This document shows positions 1,074 through 18,016 of a stretch of DNA of 43,673 nucleotides, one piece after another. Position 1 is the first letter of the stretch, and the number at the start of each line of letters is the position of its first letter. The position numbers were made by a program, and so were the translations under genes. The notes beneath the pieces were generated by a model. It saw only the letters and a program-made list of their open reading frames with translations, had not been told where the DNA came from and searched no databases. This DNA is from Candidatus Atribacteria bacterium (lineage in GTDB: Bacteria > Atribacterota > Phoenicimicrobiia > Phoenicimicrobiales > Stramentimicrobiaceae), in the NCBI GenBank assembly GCA_029553585.1, contig JAKPKS010000060.1, forward strand, positions 1 through 43,673, in the 5' to 3' direction.

Positions 1074-2192
1074 TTATTTTAATAGAGTTAGCATAACCCC
1101 GGCAGCCACTGCTGTGCCTATTACTCCAGAAACATTGGGACCCATGGCATGCATTAATAAGAAATTACGGGGATTGGCTTCCTGGCCTACTCTTTGTACA
1201 ACCCGGGCTGCCATTGGTACAGCAGATACACCGGCTGACCCGATTAAAGGATTAATCTTACCTCCGGACAATTTATACAATACCTGACCGAACATTACAC
1301 CTCCAAAGGTACTGAAACCAAAAGCAATCAATCCTAAAGTAACAATTTTGATAGTCTGGAGAGTTAAAAAATATTGTGCTTCCATGGTTGCCCCCACGCA
1401 GGTCCCTAAAAAAATAGTTACAATATTAATAAGTTCATTTTGAGTAGTGTTGGATAACCGGTCTACCACCAGACTTTCCCGAAATAGATTTCCTAACATC
1501 ATGATTCCGACAATTGGAACAGTAGCCGGTAGTAATAAACCTACCAGAATAGTACATAGAATGGGAAATAGAACTTTTTCAGTCTTGGAAACAGGATGTA
1601 ATTGTTTCATAACAATTTTTCTCTGCTCCAGGGTGGTGCATAGCTTCATGATAGGGGGTTGAATCAAGGGTACCAAGGACATATAGGAATAGGCAGAAAC
1701 TGCAATAGCTCCCAAAATTTGTGGTGCCGTCTTGGAGGCAAAATAGATAGCAGTAGGTCCATCGGCACCTCCAATAATACCTATTGAAGCAGCCTCTCTA
1801 ATATCAAAACCCAATAATACTGCGCCGATAAGTGCCACAAAGACACCTAACTGAGCGGCTGCACCTAACAGAAAGGTTACCGGGTTAGCTAAAAGTGGAC
1901 CAAAATCAGTCAGAGCCCCTATACCCATAAATATTATAATCGGAAAAAGCTCGTGTCGAATACCATAAGATAGGATGTACAAAAAACCGCCTTCTTCCAT
2001 TAAGCCGGTAAGAGGCAAGTTCACCAGTATGGAGCCAAAGGCAATTGGCAAAAGTAACAGTGGTTCATATTTTTTTACAATTGCCAAATAAAGCAGGATG
2101 CATCCTACTATTAGCATTATCGTACTTGACATGTTTAAACCGGTAAACCCTGATATTTTTATTAATTCGAAGATGGAACGTAAAAGATCCAT
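1074..2192 (-). CDS. mmdB: Sodium-pumping methylmalonyl-CoA decarboxylase, beta subunit
   Basis: This is the membrane subunit of a biotin-dependent, Na+-translocating decarboxylase (OadB/MmdB/GcdB family). It decarboxylates carboxybiotin and couples this to Na+ export. The protein has 372 residues, the short form typical of MmdB, and is hydrophobic throughout. Conserved family stretches are visible: [14 protein letters not shown] near residue 140 and [15 protein letters not shown] near residue 320. The ATG follows a good ribosome site (AAAGGAG about 6 nt upstream). It is the last gene of the block, 22 bp after the biotin carrier. Specificity for methylmalonyl-CoA rather than oxaloacetate or glutaconyl-CoA is inferred from the neighbouring mutase, epimerase and carboxyltransferase. 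Confidence 0.93.
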
Positions 2193-2214
2193 AATTTACT
2201 CCTTTCCTATTTTG

Positions 2215-2625
2215 TTACCCTATAATTAATAGTGTATCATCGGTTTCCACCATATCATTTACCGCTACAAATATCTTTTTTATCTTACCGCTGGAATTGG
2301 CTAAAATCTCATTTTCCATCTTCATTGCTTCCAGTATCACAACTGTATCTCCTTCATTAACCGAGTCGCCCTCTAAAAAATTAATTTTAAGGATTTTACC
2401 AGGCAGCGGGGCTTTGAGCTCATCCCCTTCCGCGCTACTAACCAGAGCTGGTTGTTTTTCTTCAGTCTTTTCTGGTTTAGTTTCAACTTTTTTAGTTTCC
2501 CCTGTTCTTTCTTTTGGTTCAACTTTGGCAATGACAGGAGCGGCCGGTGAGCTTTCTACTGCACCTACCTCCTCGACCTCTACCAGATATTCTTTACCAT
2601 CTACTTTAATCTTAAATTGTTTCAT
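2215..2625 (-). CDS. mmdC: Biotin carboxyl carrier subunit of methylmalonyl-CoA decarboxylase
   Basis: A 136-residue biotin carrier. The N-terminal strand (MKQFKIKVDGKEYLVEVEEV) is of the type found in OadA/MmdC carriers. Residues 22-65 form an Ala/Pro/Glu/Lys-rich flexible linker. The C-terminal lipoyl/biotinyl domain (about 68-136) carries EAMKMEN, in which Lys102 is the expected biotinylated residue. The carrier moves CO2 from methylmalonyl-CoA on MmdA to MmdB in the membrane. It sits between mmdD (4 bp away) and mmdB (22 bp away), so the genes should be co-translated. Family assignment is firm; the substrate is inferred from context. Confidence 0.93.
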   Translation of the reverse strand: MKQFKIKVDGKEYLVEVEEVGAVESSPAAPVIAKVEPKERTGETKKVETKPEKTEEKQPALVSSAEGDELKAPLPGKILKINFLEGDSVNEGDTVVILEAMKMENEILANSSGKIKKIFVAVNDMVETDDTLLIIG

Positions 2626-2629
2626 TATA

Positions 2630-3040
2630 TTAAAACCCTCCTTTTATTCTATTACTGAAAGATAGTCTTTTTGCTATCATATTTTGTATTCCAGAAATCG
2701 CCCAGGGATTTATCGCAAGGGGCATAATTCTTCTGATACTGATGACATGAACTCGCCGTAGAGTCTTAGTTTGAGATAGATAGCTTGATAGTGCGGCTGA
2801 AATTACAGCTACTATTTCTCCGCTTTTCCTTTCTTCGGTGACAACGCTGGTCTTTTCTTTCTGGCTCAGATCTTTTGATGTAGTATCAGATATTTTTATC
2901 CCTTTGGTTGTTTTATTAGAAAAGAAAGCTACTATTTTCCTCAATCCTACCATCAATAAAGCCAATGAACCCAAAACTATAAAGACTATTGTCATAGAAA
3001 TAAGCGATACTAAAATCGCGCCCTTTATTCCCTCATACAT
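2630..3040 (-). CDS. mmdD: Decarboxylase delta/gamma subunit (OadG family)
   Basis: A 136-residue small subunit with one N-terminal membrane helix (about residues 9-32, LVSLISMTIVFIVLGSLALL) followed by a charged region and a C-terminal IPxNPWAISG-like end (here INPWAISGIQNMIAKR). This is the layout of the OadG/MmdD family, which anchors the carboxyltransferase to the membrane beta subunit. It lies between mmdA and mmdC in the usual A-D-C-B order. A central stretch (residues 65-110, AVISAALSSYLSQT...RRVHVISIRR) matches the extra domain seen in longer OadG proteins. Sequence conservation in this family is low, so the call rests on layout and position together. Confidence 0.85.
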   Translation of the reverse strand: MYEGIKGAILVSLISMTIVFIVLGSLALLMVGLRKIVAFFSNKTTKGIKISDTTSKDLSQKEKTSVVTEERKSGEIVAVISAALSSYLSQTKTLRRVHVISIRRIMPLAINPWAISGIQNMIAKRLSFSNRIKGGF

Positions 3041-3112
3041 AACCTGCTCCTTCTTCTAATTTTAAAGATTTACTCAAAAATTGAAATTTATTAATTTAAA
3101 AACAATTGACTA

Positions 3113-4669
3113 TTAAAGAGGAATATTGCCATGTTTTTTACCCGGCAAACTCTCTCTTTTGGTAGAAAGCATCTCTAAGGTATTAATTAAGACAGGCCTG
3201 GTTTCCCGGGGATCAATTATCATATCAACAAAACCTCTACTCGCTGCAGCGTAGGGATTGGAAAATCTTTCTTTGTATTCATCTATTTTTTGTTGCCGAT
3301 ATTGTTCCGGATCTTTCGCCTCATCAATCTCTTTTCGGAAAATAATATTAGCCGCCCCCTGGGAACCCATTACCGCTATCTCGGCAGTTGGCCAGGCAAT
3401 GACCTGGTCGGCACCCATATCTCTGCTACACATGGCTAGATAAGCCCCGCCATATGACTTTCTAACTACCAAGGTTATTTTGGGCACGGTTGCCTCCGAA
3501 TAGGCATATAGCATCTTGGCTCCATGTCTGATGATTCCTCCATATTCCTGAGCAGTACCTGGTAAAAATCCCGGAACATCCACCAGGGTTAAAATCGGGA
3601 TATTAAAAGCATCACAGAAGCGAATGAAGCGGGCCGCCTTATCTGAAGCATCAATATCGAGACATCCAGCCAGCACTTTCGGCTGATTGGCAATTATTCC
3701 AATACTCTGCCCATTAAGTCGGGCAAAACCGGTAATGATATTGCGAGCAAAATGCTCATGTGACTCAAAAAAATCAGCATTATCTACTATTTGTCTGATA
3801 ATATCTTTCATCTCATAAGGCTTATTGGGATCAATTGGTACTATAGTTAACAGTGCTTCTTCGCATCTATCAGGACTATCCCCGGTAGTAAGGACTGGCG
3901 GGGTTTCCATATTATTGGAAGAAATATAGCCAAGCATCTTTCTGGCGGATTTAAATACTTCCTGTTCAGTATCTATAGCAAAATGCGCAACTCCGCTTTT
4001 TTGATTATGAGTCATTGCTCCTCCCAGTTTTTCGGGAGAAACATCTTCACCTGTCACTGCTTTTATAACGCTGGGACCGGTAATATGCATAATTCCGATC
4101 TTTTTAACCATGAAAACAAAATCCATTATTGCAGGCGAATAGACCGCCCCTCCTGCTGCCGGACCAACCACAATGGATATCTGGGGTACCACTCCAGAGG
4201 CAATGGTATTGCGATAGAATATTTGTCCATATCCACTTAAGGAATCGACACCCTCTTGAATACGGGCACCTCCTGAATCATTGATACCTATGATAGGAGC
4301 CCCCATTTTCATGGCCATATCCATAACCTTACAGATCTTTTTGGAATGCATTTCTCCTAAAGAACCACCAATCACGGTAAAATCCTGAGAAAAAACATAA
4401 ACCAGGCGCCCCTCAATGGTACCATATCCAGTTATCACTCCTTCTCCAGGCACTTCTTTACCCGCCATATCAAAATTAGTACAGCGATGTTCTACAAAGA
4501 GGTCAAGTTCATTAAAACTGCCTTCATCAAGAAGCAGCGATATTCTCTCTCTGGCAGTTAGTTTACCCTTTTCGTGCTGTGCTTGAATCCTTTTTTCACC
4601 ACCACCAGCAATAATCTTTTCTTTTTTTTCTTGTAAAACTTTCATTAAATCATCAATACTTTGTTCCAT
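3113..4669 (-). CDS. mmdA: Methylmalonyl-CoA decarboxylase alpha (carboxyltransferase) subunit
   Basis: Carboxyltransferase that moves the carboxyl group of methylmalonyl-CoA to biotin. It has two crotonase-like halves with the expected oxyanion-hole glycines: GGARIQEG and GGAVYSPAI in the first half and GGAYLAM in the second. The reading frame is open back to 4810, but the start at 4669 (MEQSIDDLMKVL) is preferred: it follows AGGTGGAG by about 7 nt, gives 518 residues as usual for the family, and removes an improbable overlap with the upstream epimerase gene. The upstream 47 codons have no homology-like character. The family also includes propionyl-CoA carboxylase beta chains; adjacency to mmdD, mmdC and mmdB favours the sodium-pump decarboxylase. 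Confidence 0.94.
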   Translation of the reverse strand: MEQSIDDLMKVLQEKKEKIIAGGGEKRIQAQHEKGKLTARERISLLLDEGSFNELDLFVEHRCTNFDMAGKEVPGEGVITGYGTIEGRLVYVFSQDFTVIGGSLGEMHSKKICKVMDMAMKMGAPIIGINDSGGARIQEGVDSLSGYGQIFYRNTIASGVVPQISIVVGPAAGGAVYSPAIMDFVFMVKKIGIMHITGPSVIKAVTGEDVSPEKLGGAMTHNQKSGVAHFAIDTEQEVFKSARKMLGYISSNNMETPPVLTTGDSPDRCEEALLTIVPIDPNKPYEMKDIIRQIVDNADFFESHEHFARNIITGFARLNGQSIGIIANQPKVLAGCLDIDASDKAARFIRFCDAFNIPILTLVDVPGFLPGTAQEYGGIIRHGAKMLYAYSEATVPKITLVVRKSYGGAYLAMCSRDMGADQVIAWPTAEIAVMGSQGAANIIFRKEIDEAKDPEQYRQQKIDEYKERFSNPYAAASRGFVDMIIDPRETRPVLINTLEMLSTKRESLPGKKHGNIPL

Positions 4670-4784
4670 TAAAATCTCCACCTCTCTTTGATTACTTATT
4701 TTTAGTTCACTACTTAAAACAGTCAGAAAACCAAACAATTCAATATAATAACTATAAAATTCTTTTCTTTTACCTCCTACCTCT

Positions 4785-5189
4785 TTAAACTTTATGTTCA
4801 CACAACTCAATCAAGACGCCATTGGTACTTTTTGGATGTAAAAAAGCAATTAGGGCACCATCAGCACCACTGCGTGGTTCTTGATCAATTAATTGTATCC
4901 CTTTTCTCTTTAAATCTTCCAGCACTGCTTTTAAATTATCTACTTCAAACGCTATATGATGAATCCCTTCGCCTCTTTTTTCAATATATCTGGCAATATT
5001 GCCATCTGGTGAGGTAGATTCTAATAATTCAATTTTACTTTCACCAACCGGTAAACAAGCCACTTTTACTTTCTGTTCAGGCACTTCTTCAATCTCTGAA
5101 TAATTCATTCCCAATGCGCCTTGAAAAATTGAAAGAGAATCTTCCAATTTTTTTACGGCAACTCCGATATGGTCAATCTTCTTAAACAA
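4785..5189 (-). CDS. mce: Methylmalonyl-CoA epimerase
   Basis: Interconverts the S and R epimers of methylmalonyl-CoA, needed between mutase and decarboxylase. It is a small vicinal-oxygen-chelate protein with the metal-binding pattern of the family: DHIGVAV at the N-terminus, KIELLE mid-protein, [11 protein letters not shown], and a terminal VLIELCEH. The frame allows a GTG start at 5201 that would overlap meaB by 11 bp. I prefer TTG at 5189, which begins [12 protein letters not shown], the usual N-terminus, and has AGGTGG 8 nt upstream. That TTG starts one base after the meaB stop, so the two are probably translationally coupled. The protein is about 134 residues. Confidence 0.92.
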
Positions 5190-5190
5190 A

Positions 5191-6144
5191 TTAATTACCA
5201 CCTTTCAGAAATTTTACTTTAAAGTCTTTCGTAAGTTCCTGGGCTGTAAAATAAGGGTCACTGTTTTGCTTTAATACCCTTTCCACTTCATTTTCCAATC
5301 TGTCCTCTCCGATAAACTGCAAAAATAATTCTTGCCAGTTCTCTAAAAAGAGATCATAAATCTCTTTTTTTATCCGATTTCTTCTTCTTTGATAAATTTC
5401 CCCATTCTCTTGTAAAATTACTACCAATCTTTCAATCTCTTTCCACAACCTGTCTATACCCAAATTTTCAGTACCAACTGTTTTTATTATGGACGGGTTT
5501 CTTTTTTTATGGCCATTTAAGCTTATCATCATTTCAATTTCAGAGATTAATCGATCAGTTCCATCCCGATCTGACTTGTTGACTACAAAAATATCACCTA
5601 TCTCCATGATTCCTGCCTTAATTACCTGGATATCATCTCCCATTCCAGGCATTACCACCAATAAGATGATATCTGAAACTTTAATTACCTCTATCTCAGA
5701 TTGTCCTACTCCAACTGTCTCAATAAATATAATATCTTTCCCCATTGCATCCATAATTTTAACAATGGCCTGGGTTGACCGTGATAAACCTCCTAAGTGG
5801 CCTCTGGTTCCAATACTCCGTATAAAGACCTCTTTATCGGTTGATAAATCCTGCATTCTGATACGATCACCAAGAATGGCCCCGCCGGTAAATGGACTGC
5901 TCGGATCTATGGCAACTATACCAACCTTCTTACCCATCTTTCTGATATGTTTGGTTAGCCGGTCGGTAATGGTGCTTTTTCCCGAGCCAGGCGGACCGGT
6001 TATACCTACAACGATGGCTTTACCACAATACTGGTGCAATTCTTTCAGAATCTCCTGAGCATGCTGAAAATCGTTTTCTACCATTGTAATAAGCTTTGCT
6101 GCAGCCCTGATGTCACCTTTCCTTACTCTATCGCTTAAGTTCAT
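5191..6144 (-). CDS. meaB: MeaB/ArgK-type G-protein chaperone of methylmalonyl-CoA mutase
   Basis: A 317-residue GTPase that loads and protects the B12 cofactor of methylmalonyl-CoA mutase. The Walker A loop [12 protein letters not shown] lies at about residues 48-59. It is followed by [21 protein letters not shown], the switch region [12 protein letters not shown], and the guanine-specificity motif NKSD. A helical C-terminal dimerisation arm follows. The gene starts 22 bp after the mutase small subunit and ends one base before the preferred epimerase start. Old annotations call this family ArgK (LAO/AO transport kinase); the operon makes the mutase chaperone role much more likely. Confidence 0.95.
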
Positions 6145-6166
6145 TTAATTCCTCACTTATTCAAGG

Positions 6167-6568
6167 TTAGGGTAAATTTACATTTGCTCTGATAAATTTT
6201 ACTATTTCGTTAGTATCTGTTCCCGGCGTAAATATTTCTTTAATACCAATCTTTTTCAATTCAACTATATCTTCCCTGGGAAAGATTCCTCCGGCAATCA
6301 CCAGTATATCGGAAGCATCCCTTTCAGCTAACAATTTCAAGATTTTGGGAAATAGATGCATATGAGCACCAGATAGAATACTCAGGCCAATGACATTTAC
6401 ATCCTCCTGTATTGCTGTTTCTGCTATCTGCTCCGGGGTCTGTCTTAACCCGGTATAAATCACTTCCATTCCGGCATCACGTAAAGCCCGGGCAATCACC
6501 TTGGCACCACGGTCATGTCCATCCAAGCCTGGCTTGGCTACTAAAACTCTAATCCTGGAATTTTTCAT
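6167..6568 (-). CDS. mcmA2: Methylmalonyl-CoA mutase, B12-binding small subunit
   Basis: A 133-residue stand-alone cobalamin-binding domain. It carries DGHDRG at residues 16-21, where His18 is the expected axial ligand to cobalt, plus the downstream GLSILSGAH and VIAGGIFP loops that hold the nucleotide tail. In many enzymes this domain is fused to the catalytic barrel; here it is a separate gene 18 bp after the large subunit, as is common in archaea and some bacteria. Together the two subunits interconvert succinyl-CoA and methylmalonyl-CoA. Confidence 0.96.
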
Positions 6569-6586
6569 TGCACACCTTCCTTGTCA

Positions 6587-8263
6587 CTATATCTTTAAAG
6601 ATTCTTTATATTCACCAAATACTGCACGAAGCTGATCGCATATTTCTCCCAGTGTGGCATAGCTTTTGACACAATCAAGAATGGCAGGCATAATATTCTG
6701 TTCAGAATTGGCCATTTTAGTCAATAATTTCAGATTTTCCTGGACTTTTAATTCATTTCTGTTCTTTTTTAACTTATTCAGTCTTTCAGTCTGCCTTTTT
6801 TCTATCTTCGGATTTACTTTTAATAGATCTTTCATTGGCTCTTCTTCTGACTGAAATTGATTGACACCAACAATTATCCGTCTCTTTTCTTCAATATCTT
6901 TCTGGTATTGATAGGCACTATTCTGTATTTCTCTCTGGATAAATCCGTGTTCAATGGCTTTGGGAGAGCCACCTAACTGATCGATCTTGGTAATATAGTT
7001 CATTGCTTCCTGTTCAATTATTTTAGTCAAGCTTTCCAGATAATAAGAGCCCGCCATAGGGTCTACTGTTTCTGCAACTCCGCTCTCATAGGCTATAACC
7101 TGTTGAGTCCTTAAGGCTATTCTTACTGATTGTTGAGAAGGAAGTGAAAGAGCCTCATCTCTGGAATTGGTATGCAGAGATTGAGTACCACCCAGCACGG
7201 CTGCCAGCGCCTGTATAGCAACCCGAACAATATTATTATCAGGTTGCTGAGCAGTAAGAGTACATCCCGCAGTCTGAGTATGAAAACGAAGCATCATGGA
7301 TCTTGGATCTTTAGCGCCAAAACGTTCTTTCATAATTTTTGCCCATATCCTGCGAGCTGCCCTGAATTTTGCCACTTCTTCAAACAGATCATTATGGGCA
7401 TTAAAGAAAAAAGATAGCCGTGGCGCAAAGGTATCAATATCCAGCCCTTGTTTAGCTGCTGCAGCAACATAGGCAATCCCATTGGCTAAAGTAAAAGCGA
7501 TCTCCTGAATGGCAGTAGCCCCTGCTTCTCTGATATGATATCCACTAATACTGATGGTATTCCATTTCGGTAATTCTTTTGAGCAATAATCAAAGATATC
7601 TGTAATAAGTCTCATAGAAGGCAGAGGTGGAAATATGTAGGTGCCTCTGGCAATATATTCTTTCAAAATATCATTTTGAATGGTCCCGTTTAATTGAGAT
7701 GCCGGGATCCCCTGTTTCTCGGCAATAGCAATATACATAGCAAGCAAAATAGCAGCAGGGGCATTTATAGTCATAGAGGTGCTAACCTGGTCTAAAGGAA
7801 TTCCTGCAAACAAAACCTCCATATCCTCCAAACTATCAATCGCTACACCGACTTTCCCCACCTCCCCATAGGCCATGGGATGATCAGAATCATAACCAAT
7901 CTGTGTAGGCAGGTCAAAAGCAATACTTAAACCGGTCTGACCATTTTTGAGCAGATATTTATATCTTTTATTGGATTCTTCGGCATCTCCAAAACCAGCA
8001 TACTGCCTCATCGTCCATAGTCTGCCCCGATACATGGTTGGTTGTACTCCTCTGGTGTAAGGATACTCTCCCGGAAAATTTAAATCATCGAGATAATTTA
8101 AATCTGTCAAATCAAGCGGGTCATACAGTCTGTTAACTTCCGTATTAGAGCCAGTAACAAATACCTTCTTTCTCTCAGGAAATTTTTTTAAGACTGGATT
8201 TAATGAATTTTCTTCCCATTGCTTCTTAGCTTCTTCTATTATTTGTTTATCCTGATTGGTCAA
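6587..8263 (-). CDS. mcmA1: Methylmalonyl-CoA mutase, catalytic large subunit
   Basis: A 558-residue TIM-barrel subunit of adenosylcobalamin-dependent mutase. Characteristic stretches are [20 protein letters not shown] and [15 protein letters not shown] near residues 65-105, [26 protein letters not shown], and [16 protein letters not shown]. The acyl-CoA pocket motif RGVQPTMY is of the methylmalonyl-CoA type. The length fits the two-gene form that lacks the B12 domain, which is the next gene. Translation starts at TTG, with AAGGAGGT 8 nt upstream. It is the first gene after the P-loop/Asp23-like gene in the operon. Confidence 0.95.
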
Positions 8264-8322
8264 TTTGCCGCACCTCCTTTAGATTTGTCTAATTGTCAAT
8301 TGCTGAAATTTATTTAAACATT

Positions 8323-9174
8323 TTATTTTTTATAGGTATAAATATGCTGAGAGTTCCTATTTTTTTCTATGATTAAATCTTCTACCAGGATATCTATTTT
8401 TTTAACATTTATCCCGGTAATATGGTCTAATTCCCTCTTTAAATTATCTTGAATCTCTCTTATTATGTCCGGTATATTCTTGCCATATTTCAAGGTGAGA
8501 TTAATCTGTATTAAAATACCCTCTTCATTAATATTAATTTTTGTCTTACCAATTTTGATAACATCTTTATAGTTTTTTATATTAAAAAAGATGATATCTA
8601 AAATGGCGCTTTCTGAAATAAACAATTTACCAAAATAACTAAAAGGTGGCCGAACGACTGTCCTTTCTCCAATTTTTCTATTGCTATATCGTTTCTTATA
8701 AAATATTTCTAATGATTCCACTAAATTGATGGGAAATTTCCTCTGAATTTCAATTCCCGGCAACGGGATGATATGAGTCCCTTCCATATCTCGGCTTGCC
8801 CTGGCTAACTGAATCTCTTTTTCACTGGAAACATCTTCTATATTGAATACCTTATTAATTGAAGGCAATTCCAGTGTATCTACAATCTTGTTAACCATAC
8901 CTATCGAGGTACCCAACACCATTATACTTTCAGGTTCTTCCTGTTTTATCATTTCTTTTACTGCTTTGGCATGTTTTTTATCATAAAAAATAGCCCTTCT
9001 GATAGCCTGAATCTTGTTAAGTTCTTTTTTTGCTGAAAGACCGGCTAAAATCTTATTTTTATTAATCAGCAAGCCGTCATCAATAATATATTCAATATTT
9101 TCCCTATGGGCAATTAAGAGAGCCTTATGGCTTTTACCGGTTCCGCTCTCTCCTACCAAAGCAAATACCTTCAT
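8323..9174 (-). CDS. P-loop ATPase fused to an Asp23/Gls24-like domain (function unknown)
   Basis: A 283-residue protein. The N-terminus has a Walker A loop (VGESGTGKS, residues 7-15) and a kinase-like half of about 160 residues, including YIIDDGLLINKNKILAGLSAK. From about residue 168 the pattern GERTVVRPPFSYFGKLFISESAILDII followed by INEEGILIQINLTLKYGKNIPDIIREIQ resembles Asp23/Gls24 (DUF322) envelope-stress proteins. The second assignment is by pattern and is less sure. No membrane helix is seen. It sits inside the metabolic block, after gdh and before the mutase, but has no obvious catalytic role there. A strong hairpin lies between it and gdh (9200-9233). I do not assign a function. Confidence 0.7.
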   Translation of the reverse strand: MKVFALVGESGTGKSHKALLIAHRENIEYIIDDGLLINKNKILAGLSAKKELNKIQAIRRAIFYDKKHAKAVKEMIKQEEPESIMVLGTSIGMVNKIVDTLELPSINKVFNIEDVSSEKEIQLARASRDMEGTHIIPLPGIEIQRKFPINLVESLEIFYKKRYSNRKIGERTVVRPPFSYFGKLFISESAILDIIFFNIKNYKDVIKIGKTKININEEGILIQINLTLKYGKNIPDIIREIQDNLKRELDHITGINVKKIDILVEDLIIEKNRNSQHIYTYKK

Positions 9175-9199
9175 AGTCTATTAAATTACCTCCATTAAA

Positions 9200-9233
9200 G
9201 TTCAGCCAGGGAATATCTTTCCCCTGGCTGAAC
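9200..9233 (-). terminator. Perfect 12-bp hairpin between gdhA and the P-loop/Asp23 gene
   Basis: GTTCAGCCAGGG (9200-9211) pairs perfectly with CCCTGGCTGAAC (9222-9233) across a 10-nt loop. On the minus strand the stem is followed by CUUUAAUGG, a poor U-tract, so it could be a weak terminator, an RNA-processing stem, or a 3'-end stabiliser for the upstream transcript. It lies 12 nt after the gdhA stop. The structure is plain in the sequence; the mechanism is inferred. Confidence 0.65.
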
Positions 9234-9244
9234 AAAATAAAGTA

Positions 9245-10555: not shown

Positions 10556-10576
10556 TTTGCTCCTCCTAAAATATTT

Positions 10577-12010
10577 TTATTTTATTTTTTTTAAACTTCC
10601 GCCTGATGATAAATATGCATCGATTGATCTTGCGGCAAACTTACCATCTCCAACGGCAGATATTACTGTAGCAGATCCCCGAACTATATCACCCCCTGCA
10701 AAAATTCCTTCATAAGTAGTCATTTTAGTCACTTCATCTACTTTAAAATATCCCCATTGATTGACCTCAACTCCTTCAGCACTTTGAGCCACAATAGGAT
10801 TAGCCATTGTGCCAATTGCATCAATTACCATATCTACTTCCAGTACAAAGTTAGAGCCTTTAATTGGAAACGGTTTCCTTCTGCCTGATTCATCAGGCTC
10901 CCCTAATTCCATTTTCAGACATTCCATACCTGTTACCATACCATTTTCATCCCCTAAAATTCTGACCGGCAGGGTAAGAAAATGAAAAACTATACCTTCA
11001 TCTTCGGCATGATGCACCTCTTCTGCCCGTGCTGGCACTTCTATTCTGGAGCGTCTATAGACAATGTAGGATTTTTCAGCGCCAAGCCGCAATGCTGTTC
11101 GGGCAGCATCCATTGCCACATTACCTGCTCCGATAGTGGCGGCTCTTTTTCTAACCTTGATAGGTGTATCATATTCCGGAAACAGGTATGCTTTCATTAA
11201 ATTGGAACGGGTTAGGAATTCATTGGCTGAATAAACATCATTCATATTTTCACCAGGTATATCCATAAAACGGGGTGCGCCGGCACCATTGGCTAAAAAT
11301 ATAGCATCAAACTCTTTTTTTAATTGCTCTACACTGATGGTGGCACCAATAACCTGATTAGTAAGCACTTTCACTCCCAATTTCTCTATACCTGTGACCT
11401 CATATTGTACAATTGATTTAGGAAGTCTAAACTCAGGAATTCCATAAACAAGCACTCCCCCCGGTTTATGTAAAGCTTCAAAAAGTGTCACCTGGTATCC
11501 TAATTTAGCCAGATCAGCTGCGCAGGTTAGACCAGCAGGCCCGGATCCAATAACCGCCACCTTTTTACTTATTTGTTCAGTTGATTCTTTCAAACCCTGT
11601 ATACCATTCATCCTGGCCCAATCAGCCACAAAGCGCTCTAATCTGCCTATGGCTATAGGCTTACCTTTTTTATTTAAAACACATTCTCTCTGGCATTGCT
11701 CTTCCTGCGGGCAAACTCTGCCCGTTACCGCTGGCAGGGCATCTGTCTCTAAAATAGTCAGATAAGCCTTTTCAAAATCTTCTTCCACGATATAACGAAT
11801 AAAGTCAGGAATATTTATTTCTGCCGGACAGCCTTTCATACAGGTCGGTTTTTTACACTGCAAACAACGTTGCGCTTCATAAATTGCCTCTTCTTTAGTA
11901 TATCCTAAAGGAACTTCCTCAAAATTATGTATACGGTCAGAGGGAAGCTGTTCTCTCATGGGAACTTGCTCTCTGCTTGTTCTTTCTTTCATATCTATCA
12001 TCTCAGCCAT
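10577..12010 (-). CDS. nfnB: NfnB-type NADPH-binding flavoprotein (GltD-like subunit)
   Basis: A 477-residue FAD and iron-sulfur oxidoreductase related to the small subunit of glutamate synthase. The N-terminal cluster motif CLQCKKPTCMKGCP is followed by CPQEEQCQRECV, then two dinucleotide folds (VIGSGPAGLTCAADLA and TIGAGNVAMDAARTAL) and the C-terminal GIFAGGDIVRG. The frame is open to 12109, but the ATG at 12010 is preferred: AAGGAG lies 7 nt upstream and it begins one base after the nfnA stop. The direct pairing with nfnA points to an electron-bifurcating NADH-dependent reduced-ferredoxin:NADP oxidoreductase, or the related sulfide dehydrogenase SudAB. Annotation as glutamate synthase is possible but less likely, since no large subunit is present. 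Confidence 0.9.
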   Translation of the reverse strand: MAEMIDMKERTSREQVPMREQLPSDRIHNFEEVPLGYTKEEAIYEAQRCLQCKKPTCMKGCPAEINIPDFIRYIVEEDFEKAYLTILETDALPAVTGRVCPQEEQCQRECVLNKKGKPIAIGRLERFVADWARMNGIQGLKESTEQISKKVAVIGSGPAGLTCAADLAKLGYQVTLFEALHKPGGVLVYGIPEFRLPKSIVQYEVTGIEKLGVKVLTNQVIGATISVEQLKKEFDAIFLANGAGAPRFMDIPGENMNDVYSANEFLTRSNLMKAYLFPEYDTPIKVRKRAATIGAGNVAMDAARTALRLGAEKSYIVYRRSRIEVPARAEEVHHAEDEGIVFHFLTLPVRILGDENGMVTGMECLKMELGEPDESGRRKPFPIKGSNFVLEVDMVIDAIGTMANPIVAQSAEGVEVNQWGYFKVDEVTKMTTYEGIFAGGDIVRGSATVISAVGDGKFAARSIDAYLSSGGSLKKIK

Positions 12011-12011
12011 A

Positions 12012-12860
12012 TTAACTCTCCTTGCACCTGCATCTATTTTCATTCTTAAAATGCTGCCAGGATTCTTTTTCTTCCATTTGATAACGATTATTCCTATGTA
12101 TAAATTCATCCCAGTTTACTAAACGACCATCAAATTCAGGTCCATCGGTACAGACAAATTTAGTTTCACCACCAATGGATACCCGGCAGGAACCACACAT
12201 ACCGGTTCCATCAACCATAATAGTATTAAGGGAAACAATAATATCAACCGGATAAGGTTTAATAAGATTGGTAGTTACTTTCATCATAATTGGTGGTCCA
12301 ATTGCCCATATTTTTTTGATAGAGTGGTCCTGGTCCAGCTTTTCTTTTAAAGCCTCGGTTACAAAACCCTTTCTCCCATAACTACCATCATCTGTAGTGA
12401 TTATAAGTTCATCAGAAACTGACCTTAATTCCTTTTCCATAATAATCAGATCTTTATTGCGAGCTCCTATGATAGCAATTACCCTATTACCTGCTTCTTT
12501 TAAGCCTCGTGCTATGGGATGAATACAGGCTATGCCAGTCCCGCCTCCTACCACGACGACAGTTCCAAATAGTTCAATTTCTGACTGACGTCCCAGGGGG
12601 CCAATAAAAGAATATAAATACTCACCTTCCTGAAAACAGGATAATTCTTCACTGGTTTTACCCACCACCTGAAAAACGATCTGCACTAACCCATTATTAC
12701 GATCATAATCAGCGACGGTCAGAGGGATTCTTTCTCCTTTTTCTGTGGTCATCAAGATAATAAACTGACCGGGCTGTACCGTTTTTGCTATTTCCGGTAC
12801 TTCTATCCACATACTATACATATCCTGATACAATTTTGTTTTCTCTTTAATAAGGTACAC
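12012..12860 (-). CDS. nfnA: NfnA-type ferredoxin-NADP reductase subunit alpha
   Basis: A roughly 282-residue flavoprotein of the dihydroorotate dehydrogenase electron-transfer/NfnA family. The FAD-binding barrel shows VQPGQFIILM and GERIPLTVAD. The NAD fold shows VVVVGGGTGIACIHPIA. A C-terminal [2Fe-2S] site shows GMCGSCRVSIGGETKFVCTDGPEFDG. The open frame goes back to a TTG at 12884, but GTG at 12860 is preferred: it is 6 nt after GGGGAGG and gives the typical N-terminus MYLIKEKTKL. It is followed at once by nfnB. Together they would exchange electrons among ferredoxin, NADH and NADPH, balancing the gdh and kor steps. Confidence 0.9.
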   Translation of the reverse strand: MYLIKEKTKLYQDMYSMWIEVPEIAKTVQPGQFIILMTTEKGERIPLTVADYDRNNGLVQIVFQVVGKTSEELSCFQEGEYLYSFIGPLGRQSEIELFGTVVVVGGGTGIACIHPIARGLKEAGNRVIAIIGARNKDLIIMEKELRSVSDELIITTDDGSYGRKGFVTEALKEKLDQDHSIKKIWAIGPPIMMKVTTNLIKPYPVDIIVSLNTIMVDGTGMCGSCRVSIGGETKFVCTDGPEFDGRLVNWDEFIHRNNRYQMEEKESWQHFKNENRCRCKES

Positions 12861-12920
12861 CCATTGCCTCCCCTTTTTTAACAATTTACCAATATTTTTG
12901 ATTTTTTTTAAATCGTTTTT

Positions 12921-14126
12921 CTATGAATTATTACAAATTTCGGCTGTATCCCGGGCAATCATCAACTCTTCATAAGTTGGTATTACTAAAACAGCTACCC
13001 TTGAATCCGGTGTGCTAATTACGGCTTCTTTGCCTCTTAATCCATCATTTTTGGTATTATCTATATTTATACCAAAAAAGCTTAAATCCTGACATACGGT
13101 CTTTCTTAATTGAGGTGCATTTTCCCCTATGCCTGCTGTAAATACCAAAACATCCAGCCCATTCATTGCGGCAGTATAGGCGCCAATATATTTCTTCAAA
13201 CCATAAAATAAAACATTTAGAGTTCTTTGCGCCCTCTGATTGCCTGCCAATGCTTGTTCTTCCAAATCACGCATATCACTTGATATGCCTTCTGACAGAC
13301 CCATAAATCCACTCTTCCTATAGAGGATATTGTTCATTTCTTCAAAATTAAGGCTTTCTTTTTCCATTAAATAAGGGATAATTGCTGGATCAATATCGCC
13401 ACATCGAGTTCCCATAATTAAACCAGAGATAGTGCCAAAACCGAGACTGGTATCAATCGATTTGCCCTCTTTGACAGCAGTTATGCTGGAACCATTACCA
13501 AGGTGACAGGTGATTATTTTTAATTTCTTAATATCTTTACCCAATACTTCAGCTGCTCTCTGGGCAACATATTTATGAGATGTACCATGAAAACCATATC
13601 TTCTTATCCGGTATTTCTCATAATAGGTATACGGTAAGCCGTAAAGAAAGGCATGTTCAGGGATGGTTTGATGAAAAGCTGTATCGAATACACCAATCTG
13701 GGGAGTATCCGGTAATAGTTCCTGACATACTTTGATACCAAGGATATTTGGCGGATTATGCAATGGGGCTAATTCAATAAATTTATTCAAGGTTTTCATT
13801 ACATCTTCGGTTATTAATACTGAGCCAGAATATTTTTCACCACCATGCACTACCCGGTGACCAACTGCCGTTATTTCAGTAATATCTTTAATTACACCAT
13901 ATTCATTGTTTAACAAGGCATCTATTACTAATTCAATTCCCTTACGGTGATCAGGTATGCTGATTTCTTTTTTAAACGGATCTCTACCGGCAGGGTAGTG
14001 ATTCAAGAGTGAACCCCTGATACCAATCCTTTCCACCAGACCTTTTGCCAATAATGATTCATCAGCCATATCAAAAAGACAATATTTAATTGACGAGCTT
14101 CCACTGTTTACCACTAAAATCTTCAT
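12921..14126 (-). CDS. ackA: Acetate kinase (may also act on propionyl phosphate)
   Basis: A 401-residue acetokinase-family protein that makes ATP and acetate (or propionate) from the acyl phosphate. Family signatures are NSGSSSIKY at the N-terminus, VVHGGEKYSG (with the catalytic-region His), GVFDTAFHQTIP, YGFHGTSHKYV, CHLGNGSSI, and the C-terminal FTAGIGENAP. Length is standard. It stands between korC and nfnA in the block. No phosphotransacetylase is present in this window, so the partner enzyme that makes the acyl phosphate must be elsewhere. Placement in a propionyl-CoA-forming operon makes propionate kinase activity plausible, but sequence alone cannot separate the two. Confidence 0.95.
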   Translation of the reverse strand: MKILVVNSGSSSIKYCLFDMADESLLAKGLVERIGIRGSLLNHYPAGRDPFKKEISIPDHRKGIELVIDALLNNEYGVIKDITEITAVGHRVVHGGEKYSGSVLITEDVMKTLNKFIELAPLHNPPNILGIKVCQELLPDTPQIGVFDTAFHQTIPEHAFLYGLPYTYYEKYRIRRYGFHGTSHKYVAQRAAEVLGKDIKKLKIITCHLGNGSSITAVKEGKSIDTSLGFGTISGLIMGTRCGDIDPAIIPYLMEKESLNFEEMNNILYRKSGFMGLSEGISSDMRDLEEQALAGNQRAQRTLNVLFYGLKKYIGAYTAAMNGLDVLVFTAGIGENAPQLRKTVCQDLSFFGINIDNTKNDGLRGKEAVISTPDSRVAVLVIPTYEELMIARDTAEICNNS

Positions 14127-14151
14127 TTATTTACTCCTTTTTAGATACTAC

Positions 14152-14697
14152 TTATAAACTATTTAAATTTTCCCCTATTTGAAAACCATGTTCTAATGCT
14201 TTTTTATTTAACTCTCTTATTTTTTCAGGAATTCTATCCTGTAATGCCTGTCTGAGAGCATCTTTAGACACAATGCCGCTTATGGGGATAAGGATACCTA
14301 ATGAGATTATATTGGCTACCAACTGGTTACCTAAAACCTTAATAGCATCTTCAGTTATAGGATATTGATATATTTTGCCACCAAAAGAGGGAATGTTTGT
14401 GACATTGGTTGAATCAATCAGCAGTATTCCTTCTTCTCTTAAATTTTCCACATATTTATCACAGGACTTTTGGGTTAGAGCTAATAGTATATCTGATTTT
14501 ATAATTTTAGGATAATCAATCTTCTCGTCACTAATAATTATTTCAGATCTACTGGCACCGCCTCTGGCCTCCGGGCCATAAGACTGAGTTTGGACAACTT
14601 CAAAGCCATCATAAATGCCAGCTGCCTCAGCCAAAATAATTCCAGCCAGAATTAACCCCTGACCACCTGAACCGCTTAAACATACTTCTTTTCTCAT
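14152..14697 (-). CDS. korC: 2-oxoacid:ferredoxin oxidoreductase gamma subunit
   Basis: A 181-residue subunit of the pyruvate/2-ketoisovalerate/2-oxoglutarate:ferredoxin oxidoreductase family. The N-terminus LSGSGGQGLILAGIILAEAA and the QSYGPEARGGASRSEIIIS loop are characteristic of gamma subunits that contact CoA. The start overlaps the end of korB by 4 bp (ATGA type), so the two are translationally coupled. Assignment to 2-oxoglutarate rather than another 2-oxoacid is inferred from glutamate dehydrogenase and methylmalonyl-CoA mutase in the same block. Confidence 0.9.
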   Translation of the reverse strand: MRKEVCLSGSGGQGLILAGIILAEAAGIYDGFEVVQTQSYGPEARGGASRSEIIISDEKIDYPKIIKSDILLALTQKSCDKYVENLREEGILLIDSTNVTNIPSFGGKIYQYPITEDAIKVLGNQLVANIISLGILIPISGIVSKDALRQALQDRIPEKIRELNKKALEHGFQIGENLNSL

Positions 14698-15521
14698 TTT
14701 TCTTTCCTCCCTTGCTGCACTCCCATACTGATTTCTTTATATCTTTCAGTATATTCGGGTATATTAAGATCTAAAAATTCTCCCGTAGGTATTTTCCCTT
14801 CTTTTTCATCTTCGGATAATTTCTCCCATGTTTTTTGAGGAACTGATATACTCTTTATCCACTCTAACATTTGAACAGGAGTTCTTAATTGGTTAATTCT
14901 ACCAAAGGAAATTGGACAATCAGAAATTATTTCAACTACAGAAAATCCTTTCTTCAGTAAGGCCTTTTTAATAAAACGGGTACATTGATTAACATCAAAA
15001 ATATTGCTCCGGGCAACATAAGAAGCGCCGGCACTAGCCGCCAGAGCTGATAAATCAAAACTTTGATCAATATTGCCATAAGGTGCAGTAGTACCATATC
15101 TGCCGGTTGGAGTTAAGGGTGAGTATTGCCCCCCGGTCATGCCATAAATCATATTATTGATGATAATAGCTGTAATATCAATATTCCTACGAGCTGAGTG
15201 AATAAAATGATTACCTCCGATTGCAGCACAGTCTCCATCACCCATTACCGCGATTACTTTTAAATCAGGATTAGCCATTTTGATGCCGGTAGCAAAAGGC
15301 AAAGCCCGTCCATGGGTAGTATTCATAGTATTAAAATCAACATAACCGGTTATACGACTGGAGCAACCAATCCCTGAAATCATCACTATCTCATCTTTTT
15401 CCCAGCCTATACTGTTAATTGCTCTTAATATTGCTCCCAGCACAATACCTATCCCACAGCCAGGACACCAGATATGGGGAAACATTTCTTTTCGAAAATA
15501 CTGAGTTATATCATTATTCAT
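14694..15521 (-). CDS. korB: 2-oxoacid:ferredoxin oxidoreductase beta subunit (thiamine diphosphate binding)
   Basis: A 275-residue TPP-binding subunit. It shows the cluster/TPP motif WCPGCGIGIVLG at the N-terminus, the TPP-Mg2+ signature GDGDCAAIGGNHFIHSARR, and NNMIYGMTGGQYSPLTP, which is typical of KorB/VorB-type enzymes. The enzyme oxidises a 2-oxoacid with CoA to an acyl-CoA and CO2 and reduces ferredoxin. The gene overlaps korA by 4 bp upstream and korC by 4 bp downstream. Family and subunit are firm; the exact 2-oxoacid is inferred. Confidence 0.93.
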   Translation of the reverse strand: MNNDITQYFRKEMFPHIWCPGCGIGIVLGAILRAINSIGWEKDEIVMISGIGCSSRITGYVDFNTMNTTHGRALPFATGIKMANPDLKVIAVMGDGDCAAIGGNHFIHSARRNIDITAIIINNMIYGMTGGQYSPLTPTGRYGTTAPYGNIDQSFDLSALAASAGASYVARSNIFDVNQCTRFIKKALLKKGFSVVEIISDCPISFGRINQLRTPVQMLEWIKSISVPQKTWEKLSEDEKEGKIPTGEFLDLNIPEYTERYKEISMGVQQGRKEK

Positions 15522-16666
15522 AATTTACTCTCCTCCTCAACTTTAGCAAGAATTTCCATTGGGTTTATCAGCTCGCCATCAACTCTGCCATAAGAAATAA
15601 CACGGCACTTACCTTCAGCTGCCCTTTGCACCTCACGTGATATCTGTCCTAAATTCATTTCAGGAACCACTATTAAGTCTACCTGTTCCGCTAATTTTTT
15701 AATGGTAACATCGCTGAAGGGCCAAAGTGTGATAAGCTTTAATAAACCAGCCTTGATACCCTTTTCCCTGGCTATCTTTACTGTTCTTTCTGCTGCCCTG
15801 GCTACTGAGCCATAGGCCACAATTGCTATCTTGGCATCATCCAGTAAAAAATTTTCCTCCAAAATAATATCCTTTTTATTTAATTCCACTTTGTCAGTCA
15901 ATCTTCTTATTAATTGATCTATCTCTTTATTATTGGAGGTTGGGTATCCTTTTTCATTATGAATTAAACCTGTCACATGGTACCGGTAACCACTGCCAAA
16001 ATTAGCCATAGGTGGAACAAGATCTTGGTCAGCTTTATAAGGTAAAAATTCTTCTTTAGTTACTGTTGGTTGTTTTCTATTTATTATCTCTATATCTTCT
16101 CTGGTAGGAACATTTACTTTTTCCCGCATATGTGAAATCACTTCATCTAACAACAACATCACCGGGGTACGATATTTTTCACTAAAATTAATAGCTTTGA
16201 TAGTAACATGGAAAACCTCATTTACATCAGAAGGTGCCAGGGCTATCATGGGATGATCTCCATGTGTTCCCCAGCGAGCCTGCATTACATCGCCTTGTGA
16301 GGGCTTGGTTGGTAATCCGGTACTGGGACCGCCTCGCTGGGCATTAACTATAACACAGGGGACTTCACAGATTGCCGCAAAACCAATATTCTCCTGCTTT
16401 AAACATATTCCCGGGCCTGAGCTAGCAGTCATGGCTTTGGTCCCTGTTAAAGAAGCTCCTATCACTGCTGCCATACTGGCAATCTCATCTTCCATCTGCA
16501 TAAATACTCCCCCCAATTCAGGAAGTTTGATGGCCATACCTTCAGCTATTTCAGAAGCAGGAGTTATGGGATAACCGGCAAAAAAACGTACTCCAGCCAA
16601 AATTGCTCCCTCTACACATGCTTCATTTCCCTGTAAAATTTTAACTGTTTTATTCTTATACATCAT
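15518..16666 (-). CDS. korA: 2-oxoacid:ferredoxin oxidoreductase alpha subunit
   Basis: A 382-residue alpha subunit. The N-terminal pyrimidine-binding domain shows GNEACVEGAILAGVRFFAGYPITPASEIAE, then the MEDEIASMAAVIGAS helix with the conserved Glu and TASSGPGICLKQENIG. The substrate loop NAQRGGPSTGLPTKPSQGD is of the KorA/VorB type. The C-terminal transketolase-like domain ends near the stop. GGAGG lies 7 nt before the ATG and overlaps the last codons of korD. With korB, korC and korD it forms a complete four-subunit enzyme. Confidence 0.93.
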   Translation of the reverse strand: MMYKNKTVKILQGNEACVEGAILAGVRFFAGYPITPASEIAEGMAIKLPELGGVFMQMEDEIASMAAVIGASLTGTKAMTASSGPGICLKQENIGFAAICEVPCVIVNAQRGGPSTGLPTKPSQGDVMQARWGTHGDHPMIALAPSDVNEVFHVTIKAINFSEKYRTPVMLLLDEVISHMREKVNVPTREDIEIINRKQPTVTKEEFLPYKADQDLVPPMANFGSGYRYHVTGLIHNEKGYPTSNNKEIDQLIRRLTDKVELNKKDIILEENFLLDDAKIAIVAYGSVARAAERTVKIAREKGIKAGLLKLITLWPFSDVTIKKLAEQVDLIVVPEMNLGQISREVQRAAEGKCRVISYGRVDGELINPMEILAKVEEESKL

Positions 16667-16668
16667 AG

Positions 16669-16941
16669 CTAATCCTCCAGGCCTTTATGTTCTAAATTAG
16701 GGCTAAGCTTTTCTTCTTTTTTTTCTACATTTATGGCAAAATCGGGACATCTTAACTCACATAACATACAATTAATACAATCATCTATATTTTCTGCCAC
16801 TGGGAACCCCTTTTCTCCAGCTACTAAGACTTTTTTAGGACAGAAATGAATGCAAATACCGCAGGCTTTACACCAATCTTCATTGACGGTGATAGTGGTC
16901 TTTTTATTTTGATAAATCTTTTTATTAATTTTTTTATTCAT
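16669..16941 (-). CDS. korD: 2-oxoacid:ferredoxin oxidoreductase delta subunit (two 4Fe-4S clusters)
   Basis: A 90-residue ferredoxin-like subunit with two CxxCxxCxxxCP motifs, CKACGICIHFCP and CINCMLCELRCP, each binding a 4Fe-4S cluster. The N-terminus is Lys/Asn-rich and ends at the TVNEDWCKACG entry strand. It passes electrons from the TPP site to external ferredoxin. The ATG overlaps the stop of the upstream regulator gene as TAATG, so the enzyme genes are translationally coupled to the regulator. Confidence 0.93.
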   Translation of the reverse strand: MNKKINKKIYQNKKTTITVNEDWCKACGICIHFCPKKVLVAGEKGFPVAENIDDCINCMLCELRCPDFAINVEKKEEKLSPNLEHKGLED

Positions 16942-17936
16942 TATTCCGTTAAGTCACCCCTTTCTTTTTTAATATCAAATATAGTTTTGTTTAAAGTATC
17001 AATGGAACCTTTGTCCGGAATATAAACAAATTCAATCAAGGGTATCTTTTTAAAAACCAATTTTTGTATTTCTTTCTTTCTTCCAGGAGAGACTATTAAG
17101 ATATCACTATTTTCTATTAACTTTGCTAGTTCATTTGTATCCCCGGTTGTAGTAAAGATAATTTTCTTATATTTTATCCCTCCCTGATTAATTGATTTTA
17201 TAACCCTTTCGGCAAATTTATCAGTTAAACAGATTAAACCAATATTTGTATCTGGGGATGTATCGCGAGCTATTTGTACCATAGTCTCAATCTGCGGATC
17301 TAAGGCAATAGCCACAATTTTTTTGTTTTCATGCTGTAAAAAGTCCAGTACCTCCTGAAGGTGAAAGAAAGTGGTTACTATCAGATCAACTGACTTTATT
17401 TTATTTAAAAAAATATCCTGGTTATGATACATTTCATCAATTAATAAAGGAATAATATGAATACCGGTACCAAGTTCTAATCTCTGAGAAAAATACTGTA
17501 ATTGTTCCTGATTACATTCAATAAAAGCTATATGTAAATTATTAACCGTATTTCTCTGTTCTTTAAAACGACTGCTTGCTAAACGTATAAAATCTTCATA
17601 TGAAATATTTAATGCCAGGGCTTTTTGAATGGCAGAATCAATATTTTTCATTATCGGGGATTTTTTTATGGTATTAAATATATGGTTATCACGAGCACCC
17701 TCAGAGGTAATGAAAGTACCTTTACCGGTAATTGAAGTAATTATTTTCTCCTGAACCAGTTCCTTATAAGCCATACTGACAGTATTACGGCTGACTTTAA
17801 GTTTTAGAGAGAGGATTCTTTCGGTGGGCAGTTGTGAGCCACTTTTAAGCTGACCATTTTGAATAAATTCTTTAAGCTGTTCTTTAATTTGTAAATATAA
17901 TGGTATTTTAGAACTTCTGTTAATTTCTATTTCCAT
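16941..17936 (-). CDS. GntR-family regulator with periplasmic-binding-protein-like sensor domain
   Basis: A 331-residue regulator. The N-terminal winged helix (about residues 5-75) is clearly GntR: IPLYLQIKEQLKEFIQNGQLKSGSQLPTER, then LKVSRNTVSMAYKELVQEKII and GKGTFI. The C-terminal two thirds (from about 130) alternates strands and helices in the manner of a periplasmic-binding or LacI-like domain (LHIAFIECNQEQ..., VDLIVTTFFHLQEVL, NIGLICLTDKFAERV); the ligand is unknown. It is the first gene of the block, with TAATG coupling to korD. Just upstream are a promoter and a triple 8-bp repeat covering the expected transcription start, so autoregulation and control of the operon are likely. SD is weak (AGGG). 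Confidence 0.88.
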   Translation of the reverse strand: MEIEINRSSKIPLYLQIKEQLKEFIQNGQLKSGSQLPTERILSLKLKVSRNTVSMAYKELVQEKIITSITGKGTFITSEGARDNHIFNTIKKSPIMKNIDSAIQKALALNISYEDFIRLASSRFKEQRNTVNNLHIAFIECNQEQLQYFSQRLELGTGIHIIPLLIDEMYHNQDIFLNKIKSVDLIVTTFFHLQEVLDFLQHENKKIVAIALDPQIETMVQIARDTSPDTNIGLICLTDKFAERVIKSINQGGIKYKKIIFTTTGDTNELAKLIENSDILIVSPGRKKEIQKLVFKKIPLIEFVYIPDKGSIDTLNKTIFDIKKERGDLTE

Positions 17937-17960
17937 AAACAGCTGACCCTATTAATTGGA

Positions 17961-17984
17961 CTAATGGTCTAATGGACTAACCAT
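17961..17984. promoter_or_regulatory. Candidate operator: three tandem 8-bp repeats
   Basis: Three adjacent octamers CTAATGGT / CTAATGGA / CTAACCAT span 17961-17984. They also contain an inverted pair ATGGT-N11-ACCAT (17964-17968 and 17980-17984). They overlap the start-site region of the promoter immediately upstream of the GntR gene, where a repressor would block initiation. The repeats are seen directly; the binding protein is inferred from adjacency. Confidence 0.6.
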
Positions 17985-17988
17985 TTAT

Positions 17989-18016
17989 AGAATATCATAG
18001 CTTTTAAATTTGTCAA
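17989..18016 (-). promoter_or_regulatory. Sigma-70-type promoter of the regulator/kor operon
   Basis: On the minus strand TTGACA (18016-18011, perfect -35) is followed after 16 nt by TATTCT (17994-17989, 4 of 6 to consensus). Transcription would start about 17980-17985, inside the repeat cluster and about 45 nt before the regulator ATG. Confidence 0.6.

Follow-up and report, generated by a model that had tools for sequence, protein, structure and literature searches.

A conserved gene block on the JS1 side of Atribacterota, proposed to ferment glutamate to propionate, and the older locus around which it may have been built

Do the JS1 bacteria, uncultured inhabitants of deep sediments and digesters, consume propionate, as they are widely annotated to do, or do they make it? 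The original JS1 propionate paper is reportedly that of Nobu et al. (2016). The question is raised anew by a 43,673 bp stretch of DNA (the window; contig C48, JAKPKS010000060.1, of the Candidatus Atribacteria assembly GCA_029553585.1), in which 18 genes lie on the minus strand from 17936 to 1074 in the order gntR-korDABC-ackA-nfnAB-gdhA-asp23(P-loop)-mutLS-meaB-mce-mmdADCB. The methylmalonyl-CoA genes of JS1 have been labelled as propionate degradation (PMC6776118; PMC6281690), while the context of this block argues for propionate production, not degradation. We consider it probable, though some way from certain, that the block is one regulated operon fermenting glutamate, or 2-oxoglutarate derived from it, to propionate. 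The block itself is real, conserved and coherent, and represents a new gene arrangement for known chemistry. A previous sequence-only reading had listed the 18 co-oriented genes in this order, and all were found in place after correction of two starts. The features, in the direction of transcription, are as follows.

17989-18016, minus strand: predicted promoter with an extended -10 (TG ahead of the box), TTGACA-16-TATTCT, from a scan
17957-17980, minus strand: putative operator following closely on the -10 box, with TTAG(T/A)CCA in three tandem copies
16941-17936, minus strand: gntR, GntR-type regulator (PF00392) with an unclassified C-terminal effector domain
16669-16941, minus strand: korD, 2x[4Fe-4S] delta subunit of 2-oxoacid:ferredoxin oxidoreductase (top NCBIfam match OGOR_delta, below cut-off)
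15518-16666, minus strand: korA, alpha subunit (PRK08659, 588 bits, cut-off 411)
14694-15521, minus strand: korB, beta subunit (top match 2-oxoglutarate ferredoxin oxidoreductase beta, 333 bits, below the cut-off of 364)
14152-14697, minus strand: korC, gamma subunit (PRK08537, 209 bits, below the cut-off of 235)
12921-14126, minus strand: ackA, acetate/propionate kinase (TIGR00016, 510 bits, cut-off 293)
12012-12884, minus strand: nfnA, FAD/NAD-binding subunit of NfnAB (PRK06222, 400 bits, cut-off 220)
10577-12010, minus strand: nfnB, NfnAB large subunit, corrected start (gltA-type TIGR01316, 607 bits, cut-off 472)
9245-10555, minus strand: gdhA, glutamate dehydrogenase (PF00208/PF02812; top PDB match 1gtm)
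8323-9174, minus strand: asp23, P-loop and Asp23/AmaP-like protein (PF03780)
6587-8263, minus strand: mutL, methylmalonyl-CoA mutase large subunit (TIGR00641, 841 bits, cut-off 304)
6167-6568, minus strand: mutS, B12-binding small subunit (TIGR00640; DGHDRG)
5191-6144, minus strand: meaB, mutase GTPase chaperone (TIGR00750, 345 bits, cut-off 241)
4785-5201, minus strand: mce, methylmalonyl-CoA epimerase (TIGR03081, 165 bits, cut-off 115)
3113-4669, minus strand: mmdA, carboxyltransferase, corrected start (TIGR01117, 892 bits, below the cut-off of 999)
2630-3040, minus strand: mmdD, OadG-like delta subunit (PF04277, 45.8 bits, cut-off 27)
2215-2625, minus strand: mmdC, biotin carrier (PF00364; AMKM)
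1074-2192, minus strand: mmdB, Na+-translocating decarboxylase beta subunit (TIGR01109, 489 bits, cut-off 191; PF03977)

The route that these genes would form begins with the deamination of glutamate to 2-oxoglutarate by GdhA, after which oxidation of 2-oxoglutarate by KorABCD would yield succinyl-CoA and CO2 and reduce ferredoxin. With MeaB maintaining its activity, MutLS would rearrange succinyl-CoA to methylmalonyl-CoA, Mce would epimerise it, and MmdABCD would decarboxylate it to propionyl-CoA with export of Na+. Propionate and ATP would then be formed by AckA together with a phosphotransacylase (Pta) encoded elsewhere, while NfnAB would exchange electrons among NADPH, NADH and ferredoxin, so that a partner could take up the reductant as H2 or formate. 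A TAXI-TRAP importer just upstream of the block in several relatives would provide uptake. Thus, every step from glutamate dehydrogenase (GDH) through the 2-oxoacid:ferredoxin oxidoreductase (KOR), mutase and epimerase to the decarboxylase is encoded in the operon, and the acyl-CoA-to-acid step combines AckA of the operon with the Pta of sister genomes. The window lacks a phosphotransacylase, as had been noted earlier; most sister genomes encode one, which was verified in G046. The proposed chain from glutamate to propionyl-CoA, which includes a Na+ pump as well as KOR and NfnAB, has therefore stood as a coherent and conserved gene set, its direction, substrates and cofactor use being those that the gene content suggests. 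According to textbook formation energies, the reaction glutamate + 4 H2O -> propionate + 2 HCO3- + NH4+ + H+ + 2 H2 has an energy change of -5.7 kJ/mol under standard conditions; with H2 at 1e-4 atm this becomes about -51 kJ/mol. The route would therefore pay in the company of a H2 consumer, and a H2-removing partner would be needed.

The identities of the key enzymes were examined one by one. Among solved structures MutL is nearest to 2-hydroxyisobutyryl-CoA mutase, in which Ile and Gln occupy the sites of Tyr88 and Arg206 (MutL numbering), whereas methylmalonyl-CoA mutases have Tyr and Arg at these two positions, both of which decide substrate choice. Tyr88, Arg206 and His243 are of the methylmalonyl-CoA mutase type in all orthologues covering the sites (18 for Tyr88 and 19 for the others). 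This residue comparison ruled out the enzyme suggested by the top PDB match and upheld the original mutase assignment; MutS carries the DxHxxG motif. KorA has 1yd7, 8ys5 (2-oxoglutarate synthase) and 6n2n as its closest PDB entries, and in a model comparison, which is not a full phylogeny, it groups with 2-oxoacid/2-oxoglutarate enzymes, apart from VorB and the pyruvate enzymes. The four-subunit set, whose KorD contains two CxxCxxCxxxCP motifs, is closer to OGOR than to POR/VOR enzymes, and the VorB-type paralogue of the same genome separates from it. By its closest models KorABCD is best matched to a 2-oxoglutarate:ferredoxin oxidoreductase, and the pyruvate or branched-chain specificity that would have undermined the proposed route was not indicated. 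All four subunits (alpha, beta, gamma, delta; A, B, C, D) of the Na+-translocating decarboxylase are encoded, MmdC having the AMKM biotin motif, and by the same kind of comparison, again short of a full phylogeny, the mmdA model TIGR01117 is by far the top match of MmdA, at 892 bits against a cut-off of 999. NfnB matches best to 4ylf (Thermotoga NfnAB, 613 bits); with both NfnA and NfnB present and closest to the solved NfnAB, a bifurcating transhydrogenase is predicted.

The layout of the block suggests a single transcription unit. Neighbouring genes are spaced from short overlaps up to about 115 bp after the homology-based correction of the two starts (mmdA, ATG at 4669 instead of 4810 in the list of open reading frames; nfnB, about 12010 instead of 12109). 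In G045, G046, G047 and G042 the promoter stretch is preserved with 79-92% identity across 62-77 bp, and the TTAG(T/A)CCA copies are retained in the window's own family (f1), in the sister family (f2) and in the f7 genome; a TTAGTCCA copy lies ahead of gntR in the deep lineage G026, too. These repeats are likely the operator of the GntR protein, and the simplest reading is a single regulated start at gntR, from which all 18 genes would be transcribed and regulated together. Reading the ligand of GntR from structure was rejected, as the confident PDB neighbours of its AlphaFold2 model (pLDDT 82) cover the DNA-binding domain only. An IS481-type transposase fragment (14-388) occupies the contig end just past mmdB.

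Conservation of the block was followed in 50 genomes of the phylum (10 of f1, 14 of f2, 25 of f3-f6 and one of f7). Absences are read from metagenome-assembled genomes (MAGs), the best ones being 96-100% complete; the named relatives of the block are 'Candidatus Atribacteria' MAGs. The window's own genome is incomplete (2.06 Mb in 304 contigs, 89% complete, 6.7% contaminated). The mutase is present in 24 of the 50 genomes, namely in 10/10 of f1, 13/14 of f2 and the f7 genome (1/1), and in 0/25 of f3-f6, the sole f2 genome without a match (G029) being 65% complete. We infer that the two block-bearing families represent the JS1 side of Atribacterota, named Phoenicimicrobiia (PMC11227167), and that the families without it belong to the OP9 side. 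The gene order in relatives, a check proposed together with the original reading, proved complete from gntR to mmdB in the window genome, G046, G049, G044, G043, G045, G027 and G040, and the partial contigs of other carriers show the same order as far as they reach. Because the complete order recurs across genomes, the arrangement is not due to chance. The exception is G038, where an ackA fragment stands immediately before gdhA and nfnAB is missing between them. Directly behind the block, G027 has a second glutamate dehydrogenase gene (L042:18000-19253), which is closer to the archaeal GdhA model.

The P-loop/Asp23 gene, which had been counted as a member of the pathway, turned out to be something else. 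It occurs in nearly all 50 phylum genomes (L120-L123, L132 and L135-L139 among the loci), including those without mutase, which ruled out its product as a mutase partner; it is therefore a backbone gene and not pathway-specific. Its AlphaFold2 model is weak (pLDDT 69), with no Foldseek match below 1e-3. In each of the 10 OP9-side loci read, secA, prfB, asp23 and mmdA stand in this order; mmdC, a DUF5693 gene and csaB come next in nearly every one of them. These loci showed neither kor and gdh genes nor a mutase gene, and mmdB was not seen there, mmdA and mmdC occurring without the mutase. The JS1 block is flanked by the same genes, secA-prfB-fchA upstream and DUF5693-csaB-ftsE downstream; within it, asp23 is separated from prfB by kor/ack/nfn/gdh and from mmdA by mutLS-meaB-mce. 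Comparison of the two orders thus shows an old backbone gene, asp23, with the kor/gdh module on one side and the mutase module on the other, and this gene is probably an ancestral passenger in the operon. In JS1 the operon is separated from prfB by fchA (18417-19040), which encodes a methenyltetrahydrofolate cyclohydrolase.

An intermediate form is seen in G026, where the order is gntR-korDABC-asp23-mutLS-meaB-mce-mmdA, without ackA, nfnAB and gdhA, and the gene upstream of gntR is a MFS/Atg22-like transporter, not prfB. In trees of Asp23 and MmdA, built from phylum sequences with no outgroup beyond the phylum, G026 stands beside f1 and f2 with 100/100 support. These data are consistent with a stepwise gain of the kor/gdh and mutase modules around the old locus, the alternative being the loss of the modules on the OP9 side. 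We regard as evenly poised the wider proposal that two things hold together: that JS1 are producers of propionate from glutamate by a class-wide Na+-pumping operon, and that this operon was built stepwise around secA-prfB-asp23-mmdA-mmdC-csaB, with kor and the mutase placed on either side of asp23 (the state of G026), ackA-nfnAB-gdhA added later (both JS1 families) and a transporter module joined upstream in some genomes.

This transporter module consists of a KamA-family enzyme (609 aa), a TAXI receptor, a small protein that matched no model and which we take to be DUF1850-like, and a fused TRAP permease, and it lies immediately upstream of gntR in G045, G042 and G040 (loci L129:394-6734, L128:1647-8209 and L072:30-5000). 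In G045 and G040, where rpiR is also part of it, the module separates gntR from fchA; in G042 it lies upstream of gntR. In G047 the KamA gene alone is seen and a 52-codon remnant is left in G043, which suggests decay of the module in the vicinity of the window's genus. The nearest equivalog model of the KamA-family protein is glutamate 2,3-aminomutase, with a score far below the cut-off. TAXI receptors include a proposed Glu/Gln binder (PDB 1us4), and a TAXI-TRAP system is required for Na+-dependent growth of Cereibacter sphaeroides on L-glutamate (PMC12632250). The JS1 importer is likely driven by Na+, and its position beside the operon would be in support of glutamate use, the choice of ligand not being readable from sequence.

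The fate of the intermediates depends on the partner enzymes encoded elsewhere. Succinate dehydrogenase (SDH) or fumarate reductase was sought throughout the JS1 genomes searched, and no convincing PF02910 match was found: the one scanned in f2 is L-aspartate oxidase (NadB), others there adjoin a NadC-like gene, and the few in f1 are solitary flavoproteins scoring 191-338 bits against an SDH cut-off of 587, so the 'fumarate reductase' lead was rejected. The SdhB domain (PF13085) gave only weak short matches, none convincing. Consequently, succinyl-CoA has no detected path to fumarate. Most genomes have PF05683 matches, which may be fumarase or tartrate dehydratase. Si-citrate synthase was absent from 50/50 phylum genomes (Re-citrate synthase was not searched for), leaving 2-oxoglutarate without the Si-citrate synthase route. 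The PF00180 matches were discarded as isocitrate dehydrogenase candidates: the one scanned in G000, which has leuCDB-like surroundings, is a 3-isopropylmalate dehydrogenase, and that in G046 is tartrate-dehydrogenase-like. As for the last step, PduL was ruled out as the propionyl-CoA transacylase by its absence from the whole own family, and no AcetylCoA_hyd_C CoA-transferase was found in the window's own genome. Further 2-oxoacid oxidoreductases of G000 lie on contigs C302, C221 and C170 (L064, L065 and L066): a VorB-type enzyme with Ptb and a Buk-like protein, a second KorAB with Ptb and a Buk-like protein, and an IorA fusion with an aminotransferase-like gene. These sets can be taken as signs of the fermentation of branched-chain and aromatic amino acids.

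Several observations weigh against glutamate fermentation. Most enzymes of the block are reversible; MmdA, KorB, KorC and KorD score below their equivalog cut-offs; the window's own assembly, 89% complete and 6.7% contaminated, yielded no complete Pta; the TAXI-TRAP module is absent from the window and from G046; and the core of G026 lacks gdhA, ackA and nfnAB. Isocitrate dehydrogenase is recognisable only in G044 among the 10 family genomes, so 2-oxoglutarate has to be obtained from outside or made by the block in reverse, and most family genomes need outside glutamate or run the block backwards for biosynthesis, unless they possess a Re-citrate synthase route; the two uses may occur side by side. 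Moreover, gdhA is the only GDH gene found in 8/10 f1 genomes and may also serve ammonium assimilation. The last two points are also the strength of the main rival, an anabolic reverse route, which we find unlikely: propionate, activated by AckA/Pta, or propionyl-CoA would be carboxylated by Mmd at the expense of the Na+ gradient to yield succinyl-CoA, then 2-oxoglutarate by reductive KOR and glutamate by GDH, NfnAB giving NADPH and ferredoxin. It would meet the need for a glutamate source in genomes that have leuCDB-like genes and no Si-citrate synthase. However, a Na+-exporting decarboxylase would have to work against its usual direction, the unsearched Re-citrate synthase leaves room for another glutamate source, the TAXI-TRAP import system adjoins the operon in three genomes, and the presence of further 2-oxoacid oxidoreductases together with Ptb-Buk speaks for the fermentation of amino acids.

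Less likely still is syntrophic propionate oxidation, in which KOR would replace succinate dehydrogenase, as proposed for Cloacimonadota, and 2-oxoglutarate would be passed on by transamination. The same KOR and mmc gene set without SDH is on record (PMC13082233) and propionate degradation is assigned to JS1 in the literature (PMC6776118; PMC6281690), but the route stops at glutamate/2-oxoglutarate with no SDH or Si-citrate synthase detected to go on, turning propionate into glutamate is a net uphill reaction when H2 is low, and the operon carries GDH, not aspartate aminotransferase. The earlier suggestion of propionate oxidation by the reversed block has accordingly lost ground, the search for a succinate dehydrogenase elsewhere having yielded only the NadB, flavoprotein and weak matches described above. 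Very improbable, in our judgement, is a role of the mutase and decarboxylase half in fumarate-addition alkane degradation (rearrangement and decarboxylation of alkylsuccinyl-CoA) with an incidental KOR/GDH linkage. Such roles of mcmLS and a carboxylase were proposed in JS1 (PMC6776118), but the mutase retains the Tyr/Arg pair of methylmalonyl-CoA mutase, and it is found in every own-family genome searched and next to KOR even in G026.

Whether JS1 eat or make propionate alters their place in the carbon flow of the deep biosphere and digesters, and the value of the locus lies in this challenge to the propionate-consumer label together with the visible steps of assembly: it seems to hold frozen stages of operon assembly, an intermediate form included, within one phylum. 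Apart from the block, the window contains a raiA RNA at 26428-26633 (Rfam RF03072, 173.7 bits), upstream of a hpf/yfiA-like gene (25634-26182) on the same strand.

Glutamate fermentation to propionate by the JS1 operon can be compared with several known systems. The MmdABCD architecture and decarboxylation-driven Na+ export are those of the Na+-pumping decarboxylases of Veillonella and Propionigenium and of the glutaconyl-CoA decarboxylase of glutamate fermenters (PMC8473912). Propionigenium starts from succinate and a CoA transferase, whereas succinyl-CoA would come from KOR in JS1, and the glutaconyl route uses 2-hydroxyglutarate, unlike the JS1 route. The Pelotomaculum-type mmc cluster likewise has mutase, epimerase and biotin carboxyltransferase, but it runs via succinate dehydrogenase and fumarase, and no SDH was detected in JS1. 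Porphyromonas gingivalis takes glutamate to propionate by the same carbon route, with 2-oxoglutarate as an intermediate (PMC2753363). In JS1 this route forms one contiguous operon with NfnAB. Thermanaerovibrio acidaminovorans is also said to ferment glutamate to propionate. In the alternative propionate pathway of Cloacimonadota, KOR replaces succinate dehydrogenase beside Mmd and the epimerase, and aquatic members cluster several of these genes (PMC13082233); by comparison, the JS1 operon has GDH, NfnAB and AckA together with the mutase, and its flux is read in the opposite direction.

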